A DNA stretch of 64,000 bases, taken from positions 8,428,501 through 8,492,500 of the forward strand of contig NC_003280.10 of the NCBI RefSeq assembly GCF_000002985.6, read 5' to 3'. Below the pieces are notes generated by a model that was given only the letters and a program-made list of their open reading frames with translations, was not told the origin of the DNA and searched no databases. This stretch comes from Caenorhabditis elegans (lineage: Eukaryota > Nematoda > Chromadorea > Rhabditida > Rhabditidae). The position numbers and the translations under genes are program-made. This document shows positions 1,551-35,300 of the stretch, piece after piece. Each line of letters begins with the position of its first letter. Position 1 is the stretch's first letter.

Positions 1551-3413
1551 TTATTCTGGACCAGAGAATTCCGATACATGAAGATCTCTTCTAATATTAT
1601 TAGGTGGAGAGCTTCTCGTGGTTCGAATCTTTAAATCAGATGCTTCACAACTCTCAGCTTCACCTTTGTTTCGATAATCATCGCAGCAGTCGAGGAAATC
1701 CTGAAATACATTTTTAATGTATGAATGAGAAAACAAAAGTTCAAAACAAACCTGTGCCAAACATCGTTCTCTTTTACAGTTTCTCACAAATTTGGTGACA
1801 TCTATTAGCTCATGATCCTCGGCAGTGATCTCTTCTTTTTTATAGAAAACTTTCACAAAATATTTTCCATTATCCTTCCACGTTTCAAATATGATCATTG
1901 AGTTGTATTCGGGATATTTGTCGAGTCCAACAGTTTGTTCCAACACATTCAATGAATCGAGCACTCCCATTAGAATCCAGTCTTGCTGAAATATTTTATT
2001 ATTAGGATTAATCAGCAAATACTGATTTTGAACTTGGAAATAACTCTAGAAACTCGAAAAAAGAGACACCAATGGTGTTTTAGATTAACCATATCATCCA
2101 AAAACCGAAAAGACATCCGAAAATATAATTCGATACAGAACGCGAAGAGGGCTAGTAAGGAGGCGAGTGACAAACGCCCTCGCCACGCCTCGACCTTATC
2201 GACATATCTGAGCCATGTTGTGTATATGATATAACATACCGTAGAGTACACTGCCAACTTCTCCCTTCTGGATACTCTTCCATCACTCTTGTGTTTCTCT
2301 TCTTTATCCATGTATATCTTATTTTTAATGTCCGTTAGCAACGTGTTCATAAGATTTCCAAATTTGACCTTCATCATTCGCGGGTCATGATGATTACCAG
2401 TTCCTGTGATAAACTGGGTCACATTCACATAAATACCCATGATTTCGTTTATATGTTGAGCGATGAGTGGTGGAAGAGGAATTCCATTTTTGTACTGAAA
2501 AAATAAATAAATGAACAGCTTAGACGCTGAATGAGTTTAAAATAAACCTCATTGATATGAGCTTCAATGGTGTGAAAAGGGTATTGCTTGAAAACTGGGT
2601 GAGTATATTTAAGACAGTTGGCAATGAATTCCTCGTAAATCGTCCACTGAAGAATAATCATTTTTGAAATGTTTGACTTTTAATAAAACTTTATTCAAAT
2701 CCAATACCAATCTGAAAAGCTCTATATATCTTACCGGATGAAAACTTCCACCAAAATCTGGGCATTTCTCTTTGATCAGCTCTAACTCTCGGGGACAGTT
2801 AGCTTGGTCGTAGTTTAGTAGCTGAAATAAAAGGATAGATTAATCAGTTATTTTTATTTTCAATTTCTAAATACATTTTCTCCGATCTCCTCTGTAAGAA
2901 CAGGAACATATAAATGCCTAGATGGATCTTCGAACATAGCCGCACCAACGGTTGACGCTGAGCTTAGACATCGATTTTTGTTTACGGATCTCCAATACAT
3001 CTGAAATTTTGAAAAATATAATAAAATTTCTGAAAAATAACGATACCTGACGTGGCTTCAAATTTCCATCAACAAATTTCGAGTCTACATATCGAGTTTT
3101 TAAGAATCGTCCCAATCGAAATGAATTTTCGAAGCCTCTCTGAAATTACTATTTTCAAACTTAAATTAATAAAATAACAGTCTTACATCAGTCAATTCTC
3201 CTAGACCTCTTGGAAAGTTTGCAAGATAAGCAGGATCGCTGAGACTATTTGATGGGGCACGGGCTCCATGACGAAATAGCTAAGAATATTTATGTATGTA
3301 AAAGACGGATGACATTATCTTACCACTTGTGTGTAAATCCGTTTGGGGTTTTCAGAAAGTGCGATGGCGAATTGAACAATCAAACAAATGAACAAAAACC
3401 ATGAAATCTTCAT
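1551..3413 (-). CDS. Secreted histidine acid phosphatase, tandem copy A
   Basis: Nine exons; first exon 3324-3413, stop at 1551-1553; about 400 aa. An N-terminal signal peptide (MKISWFLFICLIVQFAIALS) is followed by the phosphohistidine motif LFRHGARAP, so this is a branch-2 histidine phosphatase (lysosomal/prostatic acid phosphatase family, the nematode acp/pho group) acting on phosphomonoesters in the secretory pathway or outside the cell. Other conserved stretches are RGFENSFRLGRFLKTRYV, MYWRSVNKNRCLSSA and LMNTLLTD. The C-terminal catalytic motif, normally YS-x-HD, reads VYSTQDWILMGVLD, so the Asp remains but the His is Gln. First of three same-strand paralogues; the other two have membrane anchors instead of a signal peptide. 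C-terminal cysteines (DCCDD) match copies B and C. Confidence 0.88.
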
Positions 3414-4236
3414 CTTTTGATTTCTCACTTCTGTAATATTAGAGATATAAAATAAAAATACATGAAAATTGTTTACCAACAAGCTTGAAGTTGAAAAATT
3501 ACAAGAAATTGAAACATGAGATTGAAAAGCTGTGTTTCACGAGTAAAAAAAAACAAATAAATCAAATAAATCACCTTTCTGAAGCACGCGGAGGTCGCAG
3601 AGGTGGAAGTTTTTCTTAGATTTTCCAGTTTATTTATTTATTTAATAATAATTTCTCATAAAAGTACTTTCATGCAAGTGCCTGCCTGCCTTGCTTACGT
3701 GGCTTCTGCCAAAAGTACTCAGAAACAACTTCAACTTTGAACGGACTAAATAAATGAAAAACCAAAGTATCCAAAAAATCAGAATTAGAAGAAGATGAAG
3801 ATATAGTGCAGAGATATCCAGGAACAAGAAAATTGCTGGTTATCTACCCTTATCTTTCATTTTCTTGCTACTATCTTATCTTTTGTTATAATTCCTACTG
3901 CACAAAGAATAAATAAAAAGTTCAACGTTCTGTTGAGAACATGCTAAGGATGTGTAAATGTTCAAGAATATCTTATATGAAGGTTGTATATGGGATATTC
4001 AAATCCAAAATGAAATGCCAACTGACCAAAATAAGGAATATGATTAAAAATGATTTCAAGAAAGCGCTGAGTCAATTCTGAAGAAACAATACATATTTTA
4101 TTCCTTTTGTCAGCCAAAACGTATCATTCTCTTTTTTTCGAACAATTTGTTTAAAATGCATGAGTTTGCAAAGGCGCCAGTAAGTTTTGAAAATAGAGAA
4201 GACGAATTACAAATTAAAATATTATTTATAAAAAGT
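3414..4236. other. Intergenic spacer between acid phosphatases A and B
   Basis: AT-rich spacer holding the promoter of copy A and the 3' flank of copy B. A 61-codon hydrophobic reading frame at 3642-3827 (minus) lacks splice or family support and is probably chance. Nothing else recognised. Confidence 0.45.
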
Positions 4237-6548
4237 TCAACAATTATTTTCAAGTTCTTCCAGTGTTGCTCGGGTATTATCACAGCATTTATTCAAATTC
4301 TGAAAGATAAAATATCCTAAAAGTAATTTTTATGATTAGAACCCACCCTCAGAGAACATTTTTTCCCTGGGCATCCTGGAATGATACCAGTCAAATCTTG
4401 TAGAATATGGTCTTCCAGAGTAACCTCTTCCGGTTTATAGTAAAACTTCACGAATGGCTTTTCATTCTCACTCCATAGCTCCATTAGAATCATTGCATTG
4501 TAGTTTGGTTCTTCTTTAGGACCAACTGTTTGGATATGATTTAACCAGCCGTGGACCGCACCTACGGCGCGGCCCCCGACTTTTTTGAGAAAACACATTA
4601 GATAAACGGTGTCTATCGCGGACCTCGATCGATGTCTGCTGCGCATTTAGCATAAGGTTTCCCAAAATTTCGTTGCTCTGATCAGAGATCAAACTACATA
4701 GGGACAGAAGGACACGCGCTTTATATATAGTAAATGATACACCGAAAGCATCTAAAACACCTCCCAGCACCCAATCTTGCTGAAACGACAGATTTTTGGA
4801 AGAACAAGCTAACTCACAGTTGAATAAACTTTGAATTTTAAACTTTCTTTATTCGCAAGATTGTTTGTCCAAGCAGTTCTGAAATTAAATGAAATACGAA
4901 TGATCTCTTGGTATCTAAAAAAATTTCGGAACGAGGAAACTCACACATCCGCCCTCCCGGCCGGATTCCCCGAAAATTCCTCTAAAAACTAACTTTAAAT
5001 TCTCCAACAGTGTATCAATAAGCACGCCGAACCGAAACTTAATAATTACTGGTTTCCCAATGCCGTTTTTTAAATTTCGATATTTCATATATTCTTCAGA
5101 TATGACTTCGATGTTTTCACAAATGAAATCCGGCACGGGAACATTGTTCTTATACTGAAAAAGATTGAATCATCAGATTAAAAATGAAGGAAGAGTTACG
5201 TCATTGATGTACTTGTCAGAATCATCGATACTGATTTTCTGGAAAATTGGATGATTTGAACCAGCACACTCATACATTATTGCACTTTCGTCCTAAAAAT
5301 TATCTTCCCGAAGTTTTTCAAAATTGGAAAGATATACACGATGATTGTCAGCTTCTAGGTTTGGACAAGCTTTTTCCATTGCACTCTCAAAGATGTCACA
5401 AGAATGAACTGGAGTATTCAACAATTTATCTTGATTTGCATGGTTTGTCGTAATAGGCACAGTCAGCCATTTTCGTTCTTCCGTCTTAAACATGCCTGCA
5501 GCAACAGCAGATGCAGTTGCTAAGCATCTTTCTACAGCACGGAATCTCCATTCCATCTGATAAAGTTATGTAACTGGTAGTAAATTTGATGAACTATTTA
5601 CCTCACTAGGTTTCATAAAATCACTCAAAAATCCCGTGCCGACATATCGTTTCTTGAGAAATCTTCCTAACATAAATGAGTGATTGTATCCTCGCTGAAA
5701 ATAATTGCAAATGTGGAGAGCCTTAAATATTATTAGTTAAAGGCAATTAGAAGTTTACACTTTGGGTGTATCCTTTTGAGGAGTTTAGGTGATCTATCGG
5801 AGTCTGAATAAGCTAACACGATCAAGAGTAGAAAACATGTCCGAAAATCTGACATTAGGTGTTGGCTACTAGTGATGGACTCTATGAAAGTGTATGACAA
5901 AATATTGTTGCTCGATTTGTTTATCAATATTCAGTTAAATGTTCAAAAACTATATTTAAAATTCTAGCTGTACAGGCTTACATCAGTTAACTGTCCTCTG
6001 CCTCTCGGATAATACGTGTTGTTCGCGTTTTTGCTGGGAGCTCGTGAGCCATGCCGAAAGATCTGAAATTGTATGAAGGTAGGATTGCAAATATAACAGT
6101 TCAGAATAATGAAAAGATTGATTGATAAAATTTGAACGTACGGTATGTGCAAAAATCAACCTCCTTATCGGGTTAGTTTGCGTGACTGGATAAGGAGTTG
6201 AAGAAGTGTGGACATGCACTTTTGTAGATTTTTCATGAGTTTTTGTTGAAGAAATAAATGGATCTTTTGTTGTAGAATTTGCAAGATGAGCTTGAGGATT
6301 TATGTCGGAAGGTTCAGAGTAATCATAAAATAGAAGAAAAAGTGCAATTGCAATGACAAACGCAGACAAAAGTATAAACATACTGAAAGTTAACTTTTTT
6401 TTTTCAGATTTTCAACGTCTATAACTTACATCATATATCTAAATCTTTTTCCAGGAATATGTTTTCCACTTTGTTTTGCCGATTTGACATCCATTTTTGT
6501 TTGTGGAATTGAAACATCAATGGGACTGCAAGCCTTTTTAGCACTCAT
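4237..6548 (-). CDS. Type-II membrane histidine acid phosphatase, tandem copy B, with repeat insertion in an exon
   Basis: Start ATG at 6546-6548. A short cytosolic tail (MSAKKACSPIDVS...) leads to a hydrophobic anchor (FILLSAFVIAIALFLLFYDY), a Ser/Thr-rich stalk, then the catalytic start IFRHGSRAP, then RGYNHSFMLGRFLKKRYV and MEWRFRAVERCLATASAVAAG. The second catalytic motif is QDWVLGGVLDAF, with QD in place of HD as in the paralogues. Shortly after it the exon is interrupted by about 195 bp of repeat (4541-4735) that shifts the frame. A GTGTAT donor immediately before the insert and a CAAACAG acceptor just after it would remove it and restore the frame, joining DAF to VGPKEEPNYN. Final exon ends NLNKCCDNTRATLEELENNC, stop 4237-4239. 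Either a functional gene with an intronised insertion or a recent pseudogene. Confidence 0.78.
4541..4735. repeat. Repeat insertion inside acid phosphatase B coding region
   Basis: Compared with paralogue C, about 195 bp of unrelated sequence interrupts the codons after QDWVLGGVLDAF. The left end, TTAACCAGCCG followed by ACGGCGCGG, resembles 31063-31095 in the zyg-9 intron, so this is a dispersed element rather than local sequence. The short word ATGAT sits at both edges and may be a target-site duplication. Ends are approximate. Confidence 0.65.
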
Positions 6549-29320: not shown

Positions 29321-32300
29321 ATGTCCAATTGGGATTATCTGGACGAGGTGGATATCCTTCCCAAACTTCCACCGAACTTCGATGAGCTGCGAGAATCCAA
29401 AAAATGGCAGGAACGAAAAGAGGCATTGGAAGCACTTCTCAAAGTACTCACGGACAATGAGCGACTTTCAACAAAAGCTTCATATGCCGAACTTATTGGT
29501 CATCTGCAGATGGTTGGTTTTCATATTTTTCGGTCATTTCTGCAATCTCATTTTACAGGTTCTAGCAAAAGATGCAAACATCAATTGCCAAGCGCTTGCA
29601 GCCAAATGCATCGGAAAATTCGCAACGGGATTACGTGCAAAATTCTCTTCTTTCGCAGGACCACTTCTTCCCGTCATTTTCGAAAAAATGAAAGAAAAGA
29701 AGCCGATGCTCCGAGAACCTCTTGTAGACTGTTCCAATGAAGTCGGCCGTACAATGCAATCTTTGGAAACTGGTCAGGAAGACATTTTGGCGGCGCTGGC
29801 CAAACCAAATCCTCAGATCAAGCAACAGACTGCACTTTTTGTGGCTCGGCAGTTAGATTTGGTGGTTCCAGCAAAACAACCAAAAGGATTCATCAAAGCT
29901 GTTGTGCCTGTGTTTGGAAAATTGACTGGCGATGCAGATCAAGATGTCAGAGAGGCATCTCTTCAAGGTTTAGGAGCTGTTCAGCGCATCATTGGAGACA
30001 AAAACGTTAAAAATCTCCTCGGCGATGCTTCTTCCGATGAAGGGAAAATGAAAAAGATTGGGGAATATGCTGAAAAATCAACCGCTAGCTTCGCAGAAGA
30101 ACAAGCTAAAAATGCTCCACCAGTCGCTCCCACTTCTTCGACACCTTCGGCAAGTGCTGCTTCGGGAGATCCATCCGGCGGAACAGCAACTGCTGTTGTT
30201 TCATCTGGAGCTCCAGTTGCGGAAGCCGATCCTTGGGATTTTCTTGACGCTTTCGACGTACTTTCCAAAATGCCCGACGGTTTTGATACCAACATCGAAA
30301 GCAAGAAATGGCAGGAACGAAAAGAAGCGCTTGAAGGTTTGCTTCAATTGATCACAGCGAATCCGAAGCTCGACCCAAAGGCAAACTATGGCGCACTCGT
30401 TGAGAGATTGCAGAAGGTATGTGTATTTTGTCCTGAAAAATTATTTTAAATTCAAATATTAAGGTCCTCGAGAAAGATGCAAATATCAATGTGGCTGCAC
30501 TAGCGGCCAATTGTATAACTGGTATTGCTAATGGTCTCCGTACGAAGTTCCAGCCGTTTGCTGTGTCTGTGACTCCAATCATTTTTGAGAAGTTCAAAGA
30601 GAAGAAACCAACTCTACGTGATCCGCTGGTTGCTTGCATTGATGCAGTTGTTGCAACCACAAATCTCGAAGCAGTTGGAGAAATCGTACTCGCAGCGCTC
30701 GGAAAACCAAATCCAAGCATTAAGACTCAAACGGATCTTTTCCTTCAACGATGCTTCATGAAACTGAATTCACAGACCATGCCGAAGAAGACTTTGAAGA
30801 CGCTGATCCCGTCGTTGATAAAACATTCTGGTGATTCGGATTCGGAAGTTCGTGAAGCATCATACGCTGCAATGGGAGCAATGATGAGAGCCATTGGAGA
30901 AAAACCTTCTCTGCAACTTCTCGCCGATATTGCATCGGATAATCTGAAAATGAGCAAAATCAAGGAGTTTCATCAGAAGGCGTTGGATGAAGCTGGGCCC
31001 GCAGAGATTGCTGAAATGGTCAAATCGATTCACAAAGCAGATGTGAGTTATTTTATTATTATTAACCAGCCGCTGACCGCGCCTACGGCGCGGGCAACGC
31101 CTGGCACCATTAAAAGTATTTGACACACATACCTTCAATCACTCAAAAAATTTCTCATCATGAAAAAAACTTGAAACACTTAAAACGCGGTTTACTGGCA
31201 CTGTTACATGTATGTATTTTTCTACGACATGCATGTTTCAAAAATTCACAGACAGTATGAAAACTTTCTGTTATTTTTTGACCAAGACAGTAACCTTACA
31301 ATACCACTACAGTACCTTGACATTATCCTCCACCGACTCCTAACCCAATACCTCTTCAAAGGACGAAATGCCAATTTTTCCAAAACTACAGTAACCCTAC
31401 CGTATACCTACAGTACCCCTATAGTAACACTACAGTACCTTGACTTGATCCCCCATAAACTCCCGAATAACTACCTCTTCTAAAGCTCTAAGCTCAATTT
31501 TTCGGAACATTCCAGAATTTTCTCGATTTTTCTAGAAAGTTCTGGAACATTACAGAAATTTCTCGATTTTTCTAGAAAGTTCTGGAACATTCCAAAAATT
31601 TCCCAATTTTTCTAGAAAGTTCTGGAACATTACAGAAATTTCTCAATTTTTCTAGAAAGTTCTGGAACATTCCAGACTTTTCCCAATTTTTCTAGAAAGT
31701 TCTGGAACATTCCAGACTTTTCCCAATTTTTCTAGAAAGTTCTGGAACATTACAGAAATTTCTCAATTTTTCTAGAAAGTTCTGGAACATTCCAGACTTT
31801 TCCCAATTTTTCTAGAAAGTTCTGGAACATTCCAGACTTTTCCCAATTTTTCTAGAAAGTTCTGGAACATTCCAGAATTTTCTCGATTTTTCTACAAAGT
31901 TCTGGAACATTCCAGAATTTTCTCGATTTTTCTAGAAAGTTCTGGAACATTCGAGAATTTTTTCGAAATTTCCAGAAGATTCTAGATTTCCAGAATTTTA
32001 GAATTTTCAGAAAATTTAAATTTCCCGCAAAAATATTTTTCACAGAAAACTTAAATTTCTCGCCGAAATATTTTTCTCAGAAAATTTAAATTTCCCGCCA
32101 AAATATTTTTCACAGAACATTTAAAATTCCCGCCAAAATATTTTTCACAGAAAATTTAAATTTCCCGCCAAATTATTTTTCACAGAAAATTTAAATTTCC
32201 CGCCAAAATTTTGGGTCTTACCACGACGGGTCTCACCACGGTGGGTATTACCACGATGGGTCTCACCACGACGGGTCTCACCACGGTGGGTCTCGCCACG

Positions 32301-35300
32301 ATGGGTCTCACCACGATGGGTCTCGCCACGATGAGTCTCACCGCGAAGGATGACAGACCCCGCCCACAATTCTCAGTGACTTTGGGTGTGACGTCACAGA
32401 CTACAAAGACTACATAGACTACAAACTATGGAACAAACGGAATTATTTTTTTATATATAAGTAATGATAGTATTTAGAAGTATTCACTGATGATTTTTGT
32501 ACTGCTTATTTGTAATTTTATTGTGAATGTGTTGTCAAATTTAGGCTCCGCCAGCTGCTGCACCACCGAAAAAAACAGCTCCACCGAAGAAACAACCGGA
32601 AGATGAGGAAGTGGTCGAGGAAGAGGATGAGGTGATTAAAATTGTGTTCTTATTTCCATATAGTAATTTGTATCGATTGTGTGGTCGTTTAAAACTGAAA
32701 ACTTACAATTTTTTATTATTTTTTTTTCAGCCCCTGAAACCACCACCAGGCGATAAGAAGAAGAAAGTTCCCGTGAAGGAGAACGAAGAAAACGAGCCTC
32801 CCGTTGTTGCACCAAAAGCCGAACTTTTGCTCAGTGACAACGAGGATAAAAAGCAACGAATCAAGGAAGAGAAGCAATTAAAAGTAATTGCTTTAAATGA
32901 GTTAATAATCATACATTCTAATTAATTTGCAGTTAGTCAAATGGAATTTCCAAGCTCCGACTGATGAACATATCTCGCAACTTCAAACCCTGCTCGGAAA
33001 CCAAGCGAAAGTGTCTCTAATGAGTCAACTTTTCCACAAAGATTTCAAGCAGCATCTTGCGGCTCTTGATTCTCTGGTTCGCCTTGCCGATACATCTCCT
33101 CGATCTCTTCTATCCAACAGCGATCTTCTATTAAAATGGTGCACTTTGCGATTTTTCGAGACCAACCCGGCCGCACTTATCAAAGTTTTGGAATTGTGCA
33201 AAGTTATTGTGGAGCTAATTCGGGATACAGAAACTCCAATGTCACAAGAAGAGGTGTCTGCATTTGTTCCATACTTGTTATTGAAGACAGGAGAAGCCAA
33301 AGACAATATGAGAACTTCTGTCAGGGATATTGTCAATGTACTTTCAGATGTTGTCGGTCCACTCAAGATGACACCCATGCTACTTGGTATGAGAGAAGAA
33401 GATCAATAATGTTCTAGTAATTTTTATTTTCAGATGCGCTGAAGTCGAAAAACGCTCGCCAACGTTCCGAGTGTCTGCTAGTCATTGAATACTACATTAC
33501 AAATGCTGGAATAAGTCCGCTGAAATCGTTATCAGTCGAAAAAACAGTTGCTCCATTTGTTGGTGACAAGGATGTCAACGTCCGAAATGCTGCTATCAAT
33601 GTTCTCGTGGCTTGTTTCAAATTTGAAGGTGATCAAATGTGGAAAGCAGCAGGAAGAATGGCAGATAAGGACAAGTCGTTGGTTGAGGAAAGAATAAAAC
33701 GAACAGGAGTGAAACCGGGATCTGGTGTTGTCACCTCGCCGCCAACTGGAGGACCCAAAATTTTAGTGCCACAACAACAGGTTAGTTGTTTAAAATATTT
33801 CTCGTAATGAGTCAGGTTCCCTGAAAGATCACTTGAATCGGCCATACAGTCTTACGAGTTGGAAGTAAATAATATTTTTTTTTGTCTCAAATATTTGGAG
33901 TTAGTAGTGATTCCCTATTCGATACCCACGCGAAGTTTCGTTCAGTTTTTAGAAAACGAAAAATTACATGTTTTTCAGGGTTCGGTTGTTCGTCGTCCTG
34001 CTTCTCGATCTCGTACTCGTGAACCTGAACCAGAAGAAGTTCAAAGCGACACCTTCACTATACGACAAGACACAATGCCTCCAAAAACTTCATCTCGCTA
34101 TGCACTTCGTGACGACGTCTTTTCGTCAGCCATGGGCCGTCTTGATGGCACTCAAGTCATCACTCCACCACAACCTGTCAATGGCTGGTCAAACAATACC
34201 TTCCAAATGAAGCGGACCAATTCTTCATCGTCGATTTCCTCCATAGACACTTCTGATCAAATCCAAAGAAGCATCAACAATATTTCGAGCAGTCTTGCAG
34301 ATGTTGCTCAAGATGCTATGTTCCAGGTCACTTATGTTCTTAATCAACCTGAACAACGTCATCTTGTTGATCGACGTGCCGATTTGGTGTTTCGTGCATC
34401 TGCTGCTCAATTAGATTTGGTGATTGAAGAATTCAATGCTGGACGAGATGTCAGTGGAACTATGGACGCTTGTACGCAAATGCTTTTCATTGTAAGTTAT
34501 ATTTTTCATATGTCATAGTAATCAAGGGGAGTTCCGAAATATATCTGGCTCTCTTTGTTTCATTTAGTCATGCCATGTATATGTATATATCCAAATTTAT
34601 CTTTTCAGTTGATGGGAGGAGTCGAAACTGAGCACGGCCTTGAGCCACTTAATGCGTCCCCCGACACAGTCAAAGCCATCATCTCTTCGGTCCTCAGATG
34701 TATCATCCAAATCGGTAACACAGAGTCCGGATACGGAATGGCAAGATCTCTCAATCGACTGGCAATGCGATTAATCTACAGAGTTGAGCTGTCTAATCTG
34801 TTGTGCGGATTGATTCTGGCAATGACTGAATCACTTCAAATGAACACCGGTATAACCGAACTTGTGTCGAAGCTCTCGTCGAAATGGTGTGATGAACTTG
34901 AAAAGAGAAGAGCTCAACTGAGAGCCTCGGATATAGTCGACTCATTCAATGCTTTCTACGTTTGTGCACTCACAGAACTTAAAATGGACATCAGCGATTC
35001 ACACATTTTGATAGTTGATAACTATTTGGAGCGGGTTATCCTTCAGCAAGGAGACGTCGTCTTGGATGCTGCCCGTCGTCTTTCTCGACCACATATGCAC
35101 TTGACCAGTATGATCAACAAGATTTTACAAATGATGAGAGAACGAAAAATTGATCCTATCATGCCTGGAACATTGGAAGCCAGAATGCCACAAGAGGATG
35201 AAGCAGTTGTAGTGCGAAGCGGCGTTCAAGTTTCGATCGACAATATTCTGCGTGATACCTCGATGGCAGTTAAACATATTGAGCAACTGAATATTCTCAT

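Follow-up and report, generated by a model that had tools for sequence, protein, structure and literature searches.

What is a dense tandem array of heat-shock elements (HSEs) doing in an internal intron of an essential gene of Caenorhabditis elegans? We analyzed a stretch of 64,000 nucleotides (C2:8428501–8492500, referred to as the window; positions are counted from its first base unless a contig is named) and searched the genome of 100,286,401 bases on 7 contigs. The coding frame directly upstream of the intron finds its best solved structure in PDB 2qk2 (E 2.5e-34) and matches Pfam XMAP215_CLASP_TOG (1.1e-7). The host gene is, by homology, a carrier of a TOG domain of the XMAP215 family, which we take to be zyg-9, the name given to it in a preliminary description of the locus. 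zyg-9 is transcribed in the germline. The window sequence provides splice sites for the intron, GTGAGT at 31043 and TTTAG ending at 32544, and removal of the insert described below, which occupies 93% of the intron, leaves 100 bp. Rfam at gathering thresholds returned 0 matches across the window, and a known RNA was accordingly discarded as an explanation. A promoter scan of the intron yielded 0 promoter-like and 2 terminator-like sites, the underlying model being bacterial and of little meaning for a worm.

The preliminary description had reported about eleven 40-bp HSE units in this intron, and Tandem Repeats Finder indeed delimits 11.4 copies of period 40 with 93% matches at 31504–31961. 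The phased series of pentamers continues past this point to 31983; the array stands as described, its previously given end at 31975 does not. Searching both strands of the window for TTCNNGAANNTTC gave 42 matches against 2.29 expected and a largest count of 7 among 100 shuffles, and 37 of the 42 fall inside 31505–31982. Between 31495 and 31990 we counted 37 three-pentamer HSE sites (shuffle mean 0.115, maximum of 1000 shuffles 2) and within the array 24 four-pentamer sites. Taking at least three inverted nGAAn pentamers in register as the criterion, the array qualifies. On a fixed 5-bp grid laid over 31499–31988 strict TTC/GAA alternation is followed by 75 of 98 pentamers, while 91 of 98 agree at two or more of the three bases. 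The best 98-pentamer stretch of the window outside the intron scores 11 on the same grid, and none of 1000 dinucleotide shuffles of the array exceeds 15 of 99. The spacing that had been ascribed to HSF binding is therefore present on one grid, but the alternation, earlier called perfect, is not: 23 of the 98 pentamers are off the grid, the commonest being CGATT or CAATT once per unit, then AGACT or ATTAC. Six pentamers had been given as the maximum; the longest unbroken run comprises seven (31849–31883).

The fullest 40-bp unit reads aTTCc aGAAt tTTCt cGATt tTTCt aGAAa gTTCt gGAAc on the HSE grid, with 7 of 8 pentamers canonical and alternating, and sub-types of the unit have one further pentamer broken (aGACt or aTTAc). 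Since 40 bp equal eight times 5 bp, the pentamer register is carried from unit to unit. The array is dense but imperfect, and well built for predicted HSF-1 binding. That a plain AT-rich satellite should look like this by chance has practically no probability: apart from AT-richness nothing speaks for it, shuffles never came near the observed counts, and a six-pentamer HSE pattern occurs at 1554 sites in the genome against 0 for its reversed control. These shuffles and reversed controls rule out a chance satellite and agree with the earlier view that the array is not random.

The array is part of a complete insertion (Table 1). Read on the minus strand, the element starts with TCATTACTTATA, thus with a 5' TC, and ends with GGCTGG, corresponding to the 3' CTRR of Helitrons. 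Its parts follow each other from 5' to 3' as terminal region, 15-bp minisatellite, 35-bp minisatellite, HSE array, 3' region with CTACAGTA repeats and hairpin. The hairpin sits 11 bases before the element end, in line with the distance of about 10 nt known from Helitrons; its exact pattern occurs once in the window, and the single-stranded DNA of 31066–31105 has a predicted folding energy of −18.5 kcal/mol (z −4.39). In the sampled loci (L009–L040) an A precedes the CCAG end in 25 of 25 cases and a T follows the GA end in 24 of 27 (2 C, 1 A), as expected of Helitrons, which insert between A and T and leave the target unduplicated.

Table 1. Features of the intronic insertion, its host gene and a related copy. 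Positions refer to the window unless a contig is named.
Feature	Position	Strand	Remarks
Coding frame directly upstream of intron	30437..31042	+	Exon end 31042; 30437 taken from the opening of the stop-to-stop frame
Host intron GT..AG, 1502 bp	31043..32544	+	TOG-domain gene (by homology); GTGAGTTA at start, AAATTTAG at end; empty-site length 100
Complete non-autonomous Helitron, HelitronY4_CE type, 1402 bp	31066..32467	-	C2:8459566-8460967; between host A (31065) and T (32468); termini common to other copies
Helitron 3' end	31066..31093	-	GC-rich hairpin with 7-bp stem and 3-base loop; then TCAGCGG and terminal CTGG (CTRR)
Family-specific 3' region	31066..31494	-	~11-bp CTACAGTA repeats at 31386-31437
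HSE array, 11.4 x 40-bp units	31504..31983	.	75/98 pentamers on one alternating TTC/GAA grid
35-bp minisatellite, 5.8 copies	32008..32209	-	CHR-like/E2F-like composite TTYRAA-N-TTCCCGCC on + strand
15-bp minisatellite, 9.0 copies	32212..32346	-	Unit type as published for HelitronY4_CE
Helitron 5' terminal region	32347..32467	-	Opens with TC on minus strand
Autonomous-type copy (L040)	C2:1972000-1979400		Helitron_like_N frames L040:1102-2195, weakly 2180-3148

Both ends of the element recur in the genome. The best 26 matches to the 3' region, the zyg-9 copy included, are 88–100% identical, 22 of them covering almost the entire query and 4 partial, with the nearest other copy at 99%; most full-length matches start at 31064–31065, since the copies share the host A that precedes the element. 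At the other end, at least 40 matches to 32340–32480 were found with 90–100% identity (40 of 353 candidates scored), and among those listed 26 of 39 other copies end at 32467–32469. The Rep-Helicase domain (PF14214) has 13 matches in the genome and none within the window, and the zyg-9 copy is judged a non-autonomous member. Such members predominate in the annotation, with about 5000 non-autonomous Helitrons as opposed to 6 full-length ones according to passages of PMC6927752.

The family could be named from published repeat units. For HelitronY4_CE a 40-bp unit, AAAATTCTGGAATGTTCCAGAACTTTCTAGAAAAATTGGG, and a 15-bp unit, CCATCGTGG(T/C)GAGAC, are printed in PMC4039745. All 11 of 11 array units are identical to the former at 36–39 of 40 bases in a single rotation, and the latter is present in 2 exact copies among the 9.0 copies of the 15-bp array. 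In addition, Table 1 of PMC9918286 labels a satellite at chrIII:8344363 as HelitronY4_CE; C3:8344359–8344691 matches our array, and the sequence adjoining it matches the 3' region (98%, partial). The 40-bp unit, the 15-bp unit type and the chrIII satellite all agree with the zyg-9 copy and no difference was seen among these compared parts; the unit identity and the satellite match identify the element as a member of the HelitronY4_CE family. The proposal that the array is Helitron-borne is thus borne out by termini, genome copies and the published unit. The same holds for the statement that Helitron-borne HSEs have been described in Caenorhabditis, as passages of PMC6927752 include HelitronY4_CE among them.

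A genome search with the 40-bp unit, suggested in the preliminary description, shows how widespread it is. At least 169 matches to the array were obtained (40 of 283 candidates scored), and a 27-base core of the unit occurs exactly 423 times (202 + 221) as opposed to 0 for the reversed control. Among the 22 aligned copies of the 429-base 3' region with an alignment of at least 380 columns, the zyg-9 copy carries 5 private substitutions, and its nearest copy, at chrV:6941571, differs by 5. If each site mutates at a few times 1e-9 per generation, the age is, as a rough estimate, some millions of generations, and the copy looks young. The insertion is real, complete and well preserved; what is new about it is confined to the description of an intronic, antisense copy. 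HelitronY4_CE was found in one of the multiply spliced genes, R11A5.4, and in none of the comparison genes (PMC4039745); a splicing role for the 40-bp repeat was discarded, the passages of that paper claiming none.

We compared the zyg-9 copy with an autonomous-type relative, L040. Table 1 of PMC9918286 places a complete Helitron1_CE at chrII:1970474, and L040 carries this label by position, with no consensus alignment behind it. Its Helitron_like_N frames lie on the element's own strand and its 5' end, at L040:5130, is 90% identical to 32287–32467 over 182 columns. Between this end and the frames L040 repeats the arrangement of the zyg-9 copy, with a 15-bp repeat followed by a 32-bp repeat and then by HSEs. 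Apart from the Helitron_like_N frames, L040 differs in its 32-bp unit where the zyg-9 copy has a 35-bp one, and its HSEs amount to 12 three-pentamer sites at 3765–4376 that form no 40-bp array. Because the repeat order upstream of the Helitron_like_N frames recurs in L040, the array is best read as a promoter module of the transposon. It would be an enlarged HSE segment of a transposase promoter, kept by a short derivative that has shed the coding part. Consistent with this, 14 HSEs were reported in the promoter region of F33H12.6, the transposase gene of a full-length Helitron1_CE (PMC6927752). A 146-aa open frame at L040:3704–4141 overlaps some of the HSEs and speaks against a simple promoter segment.

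Helitron HSEs, including those of HelitronY4_CE, and the binding of HSF-1 to them have been described before. The passages of PMC6927752 state that Helitrons hold 61.4% of genomic HSEs, that eight copies of HelitronY4_CE hold more than 100, and that HelitronY4_CE HSEs lie upstream of the heat-induced genes col-52 (86) and nhr-247 (96). Heat shock generally raises HSF-1 and Pol II at those Helitron HSEs to which HSF-1 binds (PMC6927752). Helitron1_CE RNA depends on HSF-1 (PMC6765114), and the HSF-1 DBD binds extended HSEs cooperatively (PMC9148306). The response of neighboring genes varies: fbxa-215, which has HSF-1-bound Helitrons upstream, goes down and not up on heat shock, and deletion of the upstream Helitrons alters fertility and heat resistance, with HSF-1 binding suggested to be mostly germline (PMC12062965). 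The array in zyg-9 resembles these Helitron-acquired HSEs (Hac-HSEs; Garrigues 2019, PMC6927752) in consisting of dense overlapping HSEs within a Helitron, but in the passages of that study the HSEs are upstream of genes, whereas ours is located in an internal intron and antisense to its host. The main texts of PMC6927752 and PMC6765114 do not name zyg-9; PMC4053757 mentions neither zyg-9 nor a repeat or transposon, and PMC11535032 neither helitron nor zyg-9.

Taken together, we are fairly confident that a non-autonomous HelitronY4_CE-type transposon in a zyg-9 intron of about 100 bp contributed the array as its heat-responsive promoter module and that it is a tolerated passenger there. This rolling-circle transposon inserted on the minus strand, at a point of the short intron where an A was followed by a T. 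The original task of the module was presumably to drive Rep-Helicase in autonomous relatives, and short derivatives have kept it. By analogy with the published Helitron class, HSF-1 trimers would bind the phased pentamers cooperatively on heat shock and recruit Pol II. Between heat shocks local silencing of the H3K9me2 type probably quiets the element without stopping the expression of zyg-9. As the element lies on the minus strand, a transcript in transposon direction runs antisense to zyg-9 towards its upstream exons; the most likely present contribution of the module would be such a transcript, occasional and heat-induced. On balance the effect of the insertion on zyg-9 is probably small. 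The completeness of the element, its family and its HSE grid are established at the level of sequence. The zyg-9 copy itself may be unbound, given what passages of PMC6927752 report for the col-88 Helitron example, where HSF-1 occupancy is below that of hsp-70 and repressive marks are more frequent at such genes.

A reading that we find doubtful, though it deserves weight, is that the HSEs are just the fossil of a transposon promoter and that local silencing keeps HSF-1 off the zyg-9 copy. Helitron families show a strong association with HPL-2, LIN-13, LIN-61, MET-2 and H3K9me2 (PMC5395297), and although there are 11,527 Helitron HSEs, no more than 556 HSF-1 peak summits on heat shock have any of them inside (PMC6927752). 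Yet the array is nearly intact, its few private substitutions make the copy look young, and the class is bound on heat shock, all of which argues against an inert relic. It is also possible, and in our view unlikely, that HelitronY4 arrays act as a sink that soaks up HSF-1, mainly in germ cells, and thereby damps the canonical response, the zyg-9 copy being especially exposed via germline transcription of its host. The genome-wide number of six-pentamer HSEs would suit such a sink, as would the 202 units of a single array on chrV, decoys have been speculated on in PMC8896005, and a review citing Edwards 2021 states that HSF-1 in heat-stressed germ cells prefers helitrons with its activity repressed (passages of PMC9737000). 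However, just 2 of the 1554 six-pentamer sites fall in the zyg-9 copy, hence any sink would be collective.

A direct consequence for the host, in which heat sets off antisense or intronic transcription at the array, this lowers or reshapes the output of zyg-9 and temperature so acts on spindle function, appears quite improbable. The orientation of the element, whose own promoter direction reads towards upstream zyg-9 exons, and the class-level increase of Pol II at Helitron HSEs (PMC6927752) would allow it. But the published link to heat induction concerns HSEs at up to 2.5 kb upstream of genes (passages of PMC6927752), whereas this array is in an internal intron; genes with repeats, usually intronic, to which heterochromatin factors bind are often expressed in the germline (PMC5395297), and in the literature searched no paper joins zyg-9, heat shock and HSF-1. 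We consider the interpretation offered in the preliminary description partly supported. The zyg-9 copy offers a clean test of whether a Helitron HSE array that lies antisense in an intron has any influence on an essential host gene; the published cases are promoter-proximal.

The minisatellite next to the array suggested a further input to the module. The 35-bp repeat contains TTTAAATTTCCCGCCAAA. By the E2F consensus TTTSSCGC we take TTTCCCGCC to be an E2F-type site. The TTTAAA of the repeat fits TTYRAA, the CHR code given for LIN-54 (PMC5683655), and on the minus strand the composite follows the order of a described hybrid motif, which opens 5' with E2F and closes 3' with CHR (PMC3093354), a comparison of order alone. 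The composite TTYRAANTTCCCGCC occurs 2776 times in the genome against 3 for the reversed control, 4 copies of it being in the 10-kb stretch that contains the zyg-9 element (L011), which thereby shows a DREAM-type sequence. For TTTCCCGCCAAA the counts are 2704 against 7, while a form with the two parts four bases apart is found only 7 times (control 2). The composite is present in 29 of 32 loci L009–L040, which were picked via Helitron matches and are not an unbiased sample, and in L040 a form without the spacer base predominates (9 copies versus 1). On C1:1–3.98 Mb TTTCCCGCCAAA lies no more than 500 bp from 4 of 12 six-pentamer HSE clusters (circular-shift mean 0.188); at up to 3000 bp it is still 4 of 12 (shift mean 0.817), leaving 8 of 12 with none. 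This proximity shows co-carriage, not function.

It is nevertheless conceivable, if rather unlikely, that the 5' module common to HelitronY4_CE and Helitron1_CE is a two-input promoter, in which tandem DREAM-type TTYRAA-N-TTCCCGCC sites would confine expression to dividing germ cells and the adjoining HSEs would trigger it on heat. Scattered genome-wide, such modules would include the array in the intron of zyg-9, a maternally expressed gene, where in open germline chromatin it could fire antisense on heat. If bound, the composite would join EFL-1 sites in transposons and germline HSF-1 on Helitrons into one promoter logic, and among the matches listed we found no paper pairing an E2F/CHR repeat with a Helitron HSE array. 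Against it stands that the high copy number of one repeat family would give equal counts without any function. A published TE study does not count EFL-1 among the factors that have over 10% of their motifs in TEs, and it saw no case of orthologs sharing promoter TEs with EFL-1 motifs in which EFL-1 binds these TEs; the most enriched of 130 motifs in Helitrons is the HSE (passages of PMC6927752).

Variation among units gives a hint at the history of the promoter module. We sampled 598 units from loci L009–L040. In the 24 loci with at least 5 units (581 units) the 24 TTC/GAA core positions have a mean within-locus diversity of 0.060, compared with 0.132 for the 16 spacer positions (one-sided Mann-Whitney 0.002; 0.038 for the six intact pentamers), where positions and units share ancestry and the observations are not independent. 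With the frame shifted by one base the contrast is nearly equal (0.062 versus 0.129). The low core diversity fits, as weak evidence, selection on the HSE sequence sometime in the past of the family.

Human satellite III is pericentromeric and very long, in which it differs from the zyg-9 array. A likeness exists insofar as HSF1 binds its tandem repeats on heat shock in nuclear stress bodies (PMC6453478); PMC9261439, also on stress bodies, contributed nothing further. A much longer worm array is located on chrV (7.917–7.925 Mb) and counts 202 units. It does not keep a single 5-bp register throughout, 791 of 1618 pentamers being on one grid, because the register shifts once, 5.2–5.6 kb into the array. 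This array is a natural candidate scaffold for the stress granules of worm HSF-1, the binding sites of which are called unknown in passages of PMC6453478.

Across the 100 Mb searched, heat-shock elements (HSEs) made of six alternating TTC/GAA pentamers in register were found at 1554 sites, versus 0 for the same pattern written backwards. The 40-bp HSE unit of the zyg-9 Helitron copy recurs on chromosome V as an array of 202 units spanning 8.1 kb (L009/L010), which adjoins a Helitron 5' end together with 14 copies of the 15-bp and 20.8 copies of the 35-bp repeat. A 3' end matching this Helitron was not found within L009/L010. Together, the array and an adjoining complete copy contain 555 three-pentamer HSEs in 17.5 kb. 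Worm HSF-1 forms stress granules whose binding sites are described as unknown in PMC6453478, and we consider the 202-unit array a candidate scaffold for these granules.

The 35-bp minisatellite of the zyg-9 element carries a putative E2F/CHR composite site, TTYRAANTTCCCGCC, which is present 2776 times genome-wide versus 3 times for the reversed control.

Two places on chromosome V, about 16–20 kb apart, show the same outside flanks at their Helitron ends (L014 and L028). In L014 both ends bound one copy, and in L028 they occur in the opposite order. Common flanks and opposite order point to a probable duplication and rearrangement of a host segment that includes this element.

Positions of the repeats and Helitron ends
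Feature	Position	Strand	Sequence
35-bp minisatellite, zyg-9 element	window 32008-32209		
202-unit HSE array	G000:C5:7916930-7925020	minus	
Helitron ends with common flanks	L014:3530 and 5275		3' end atatattaacaa, 5' end tatttcagtagg
Helitron ends with common flanks	L028:3180 and 4988		3' end atatattaacaa, 5' end tatttcagtagg
Junction in autonomous-type copy locus	L040:5130-5131		
62-bp tandem array	L040:5747-7231		

The autonomous-type copy (L040) has the 5' end TATAAGTAATGA, with CCAGCCGTTCGC immediately next to it. The latter resembles the beginning of a 3' end from a further Helitron, so that two elements apparently adjoin at this junction. Beside this Helitron end lies a tandem array of 24 copies of a 62-bp unit.
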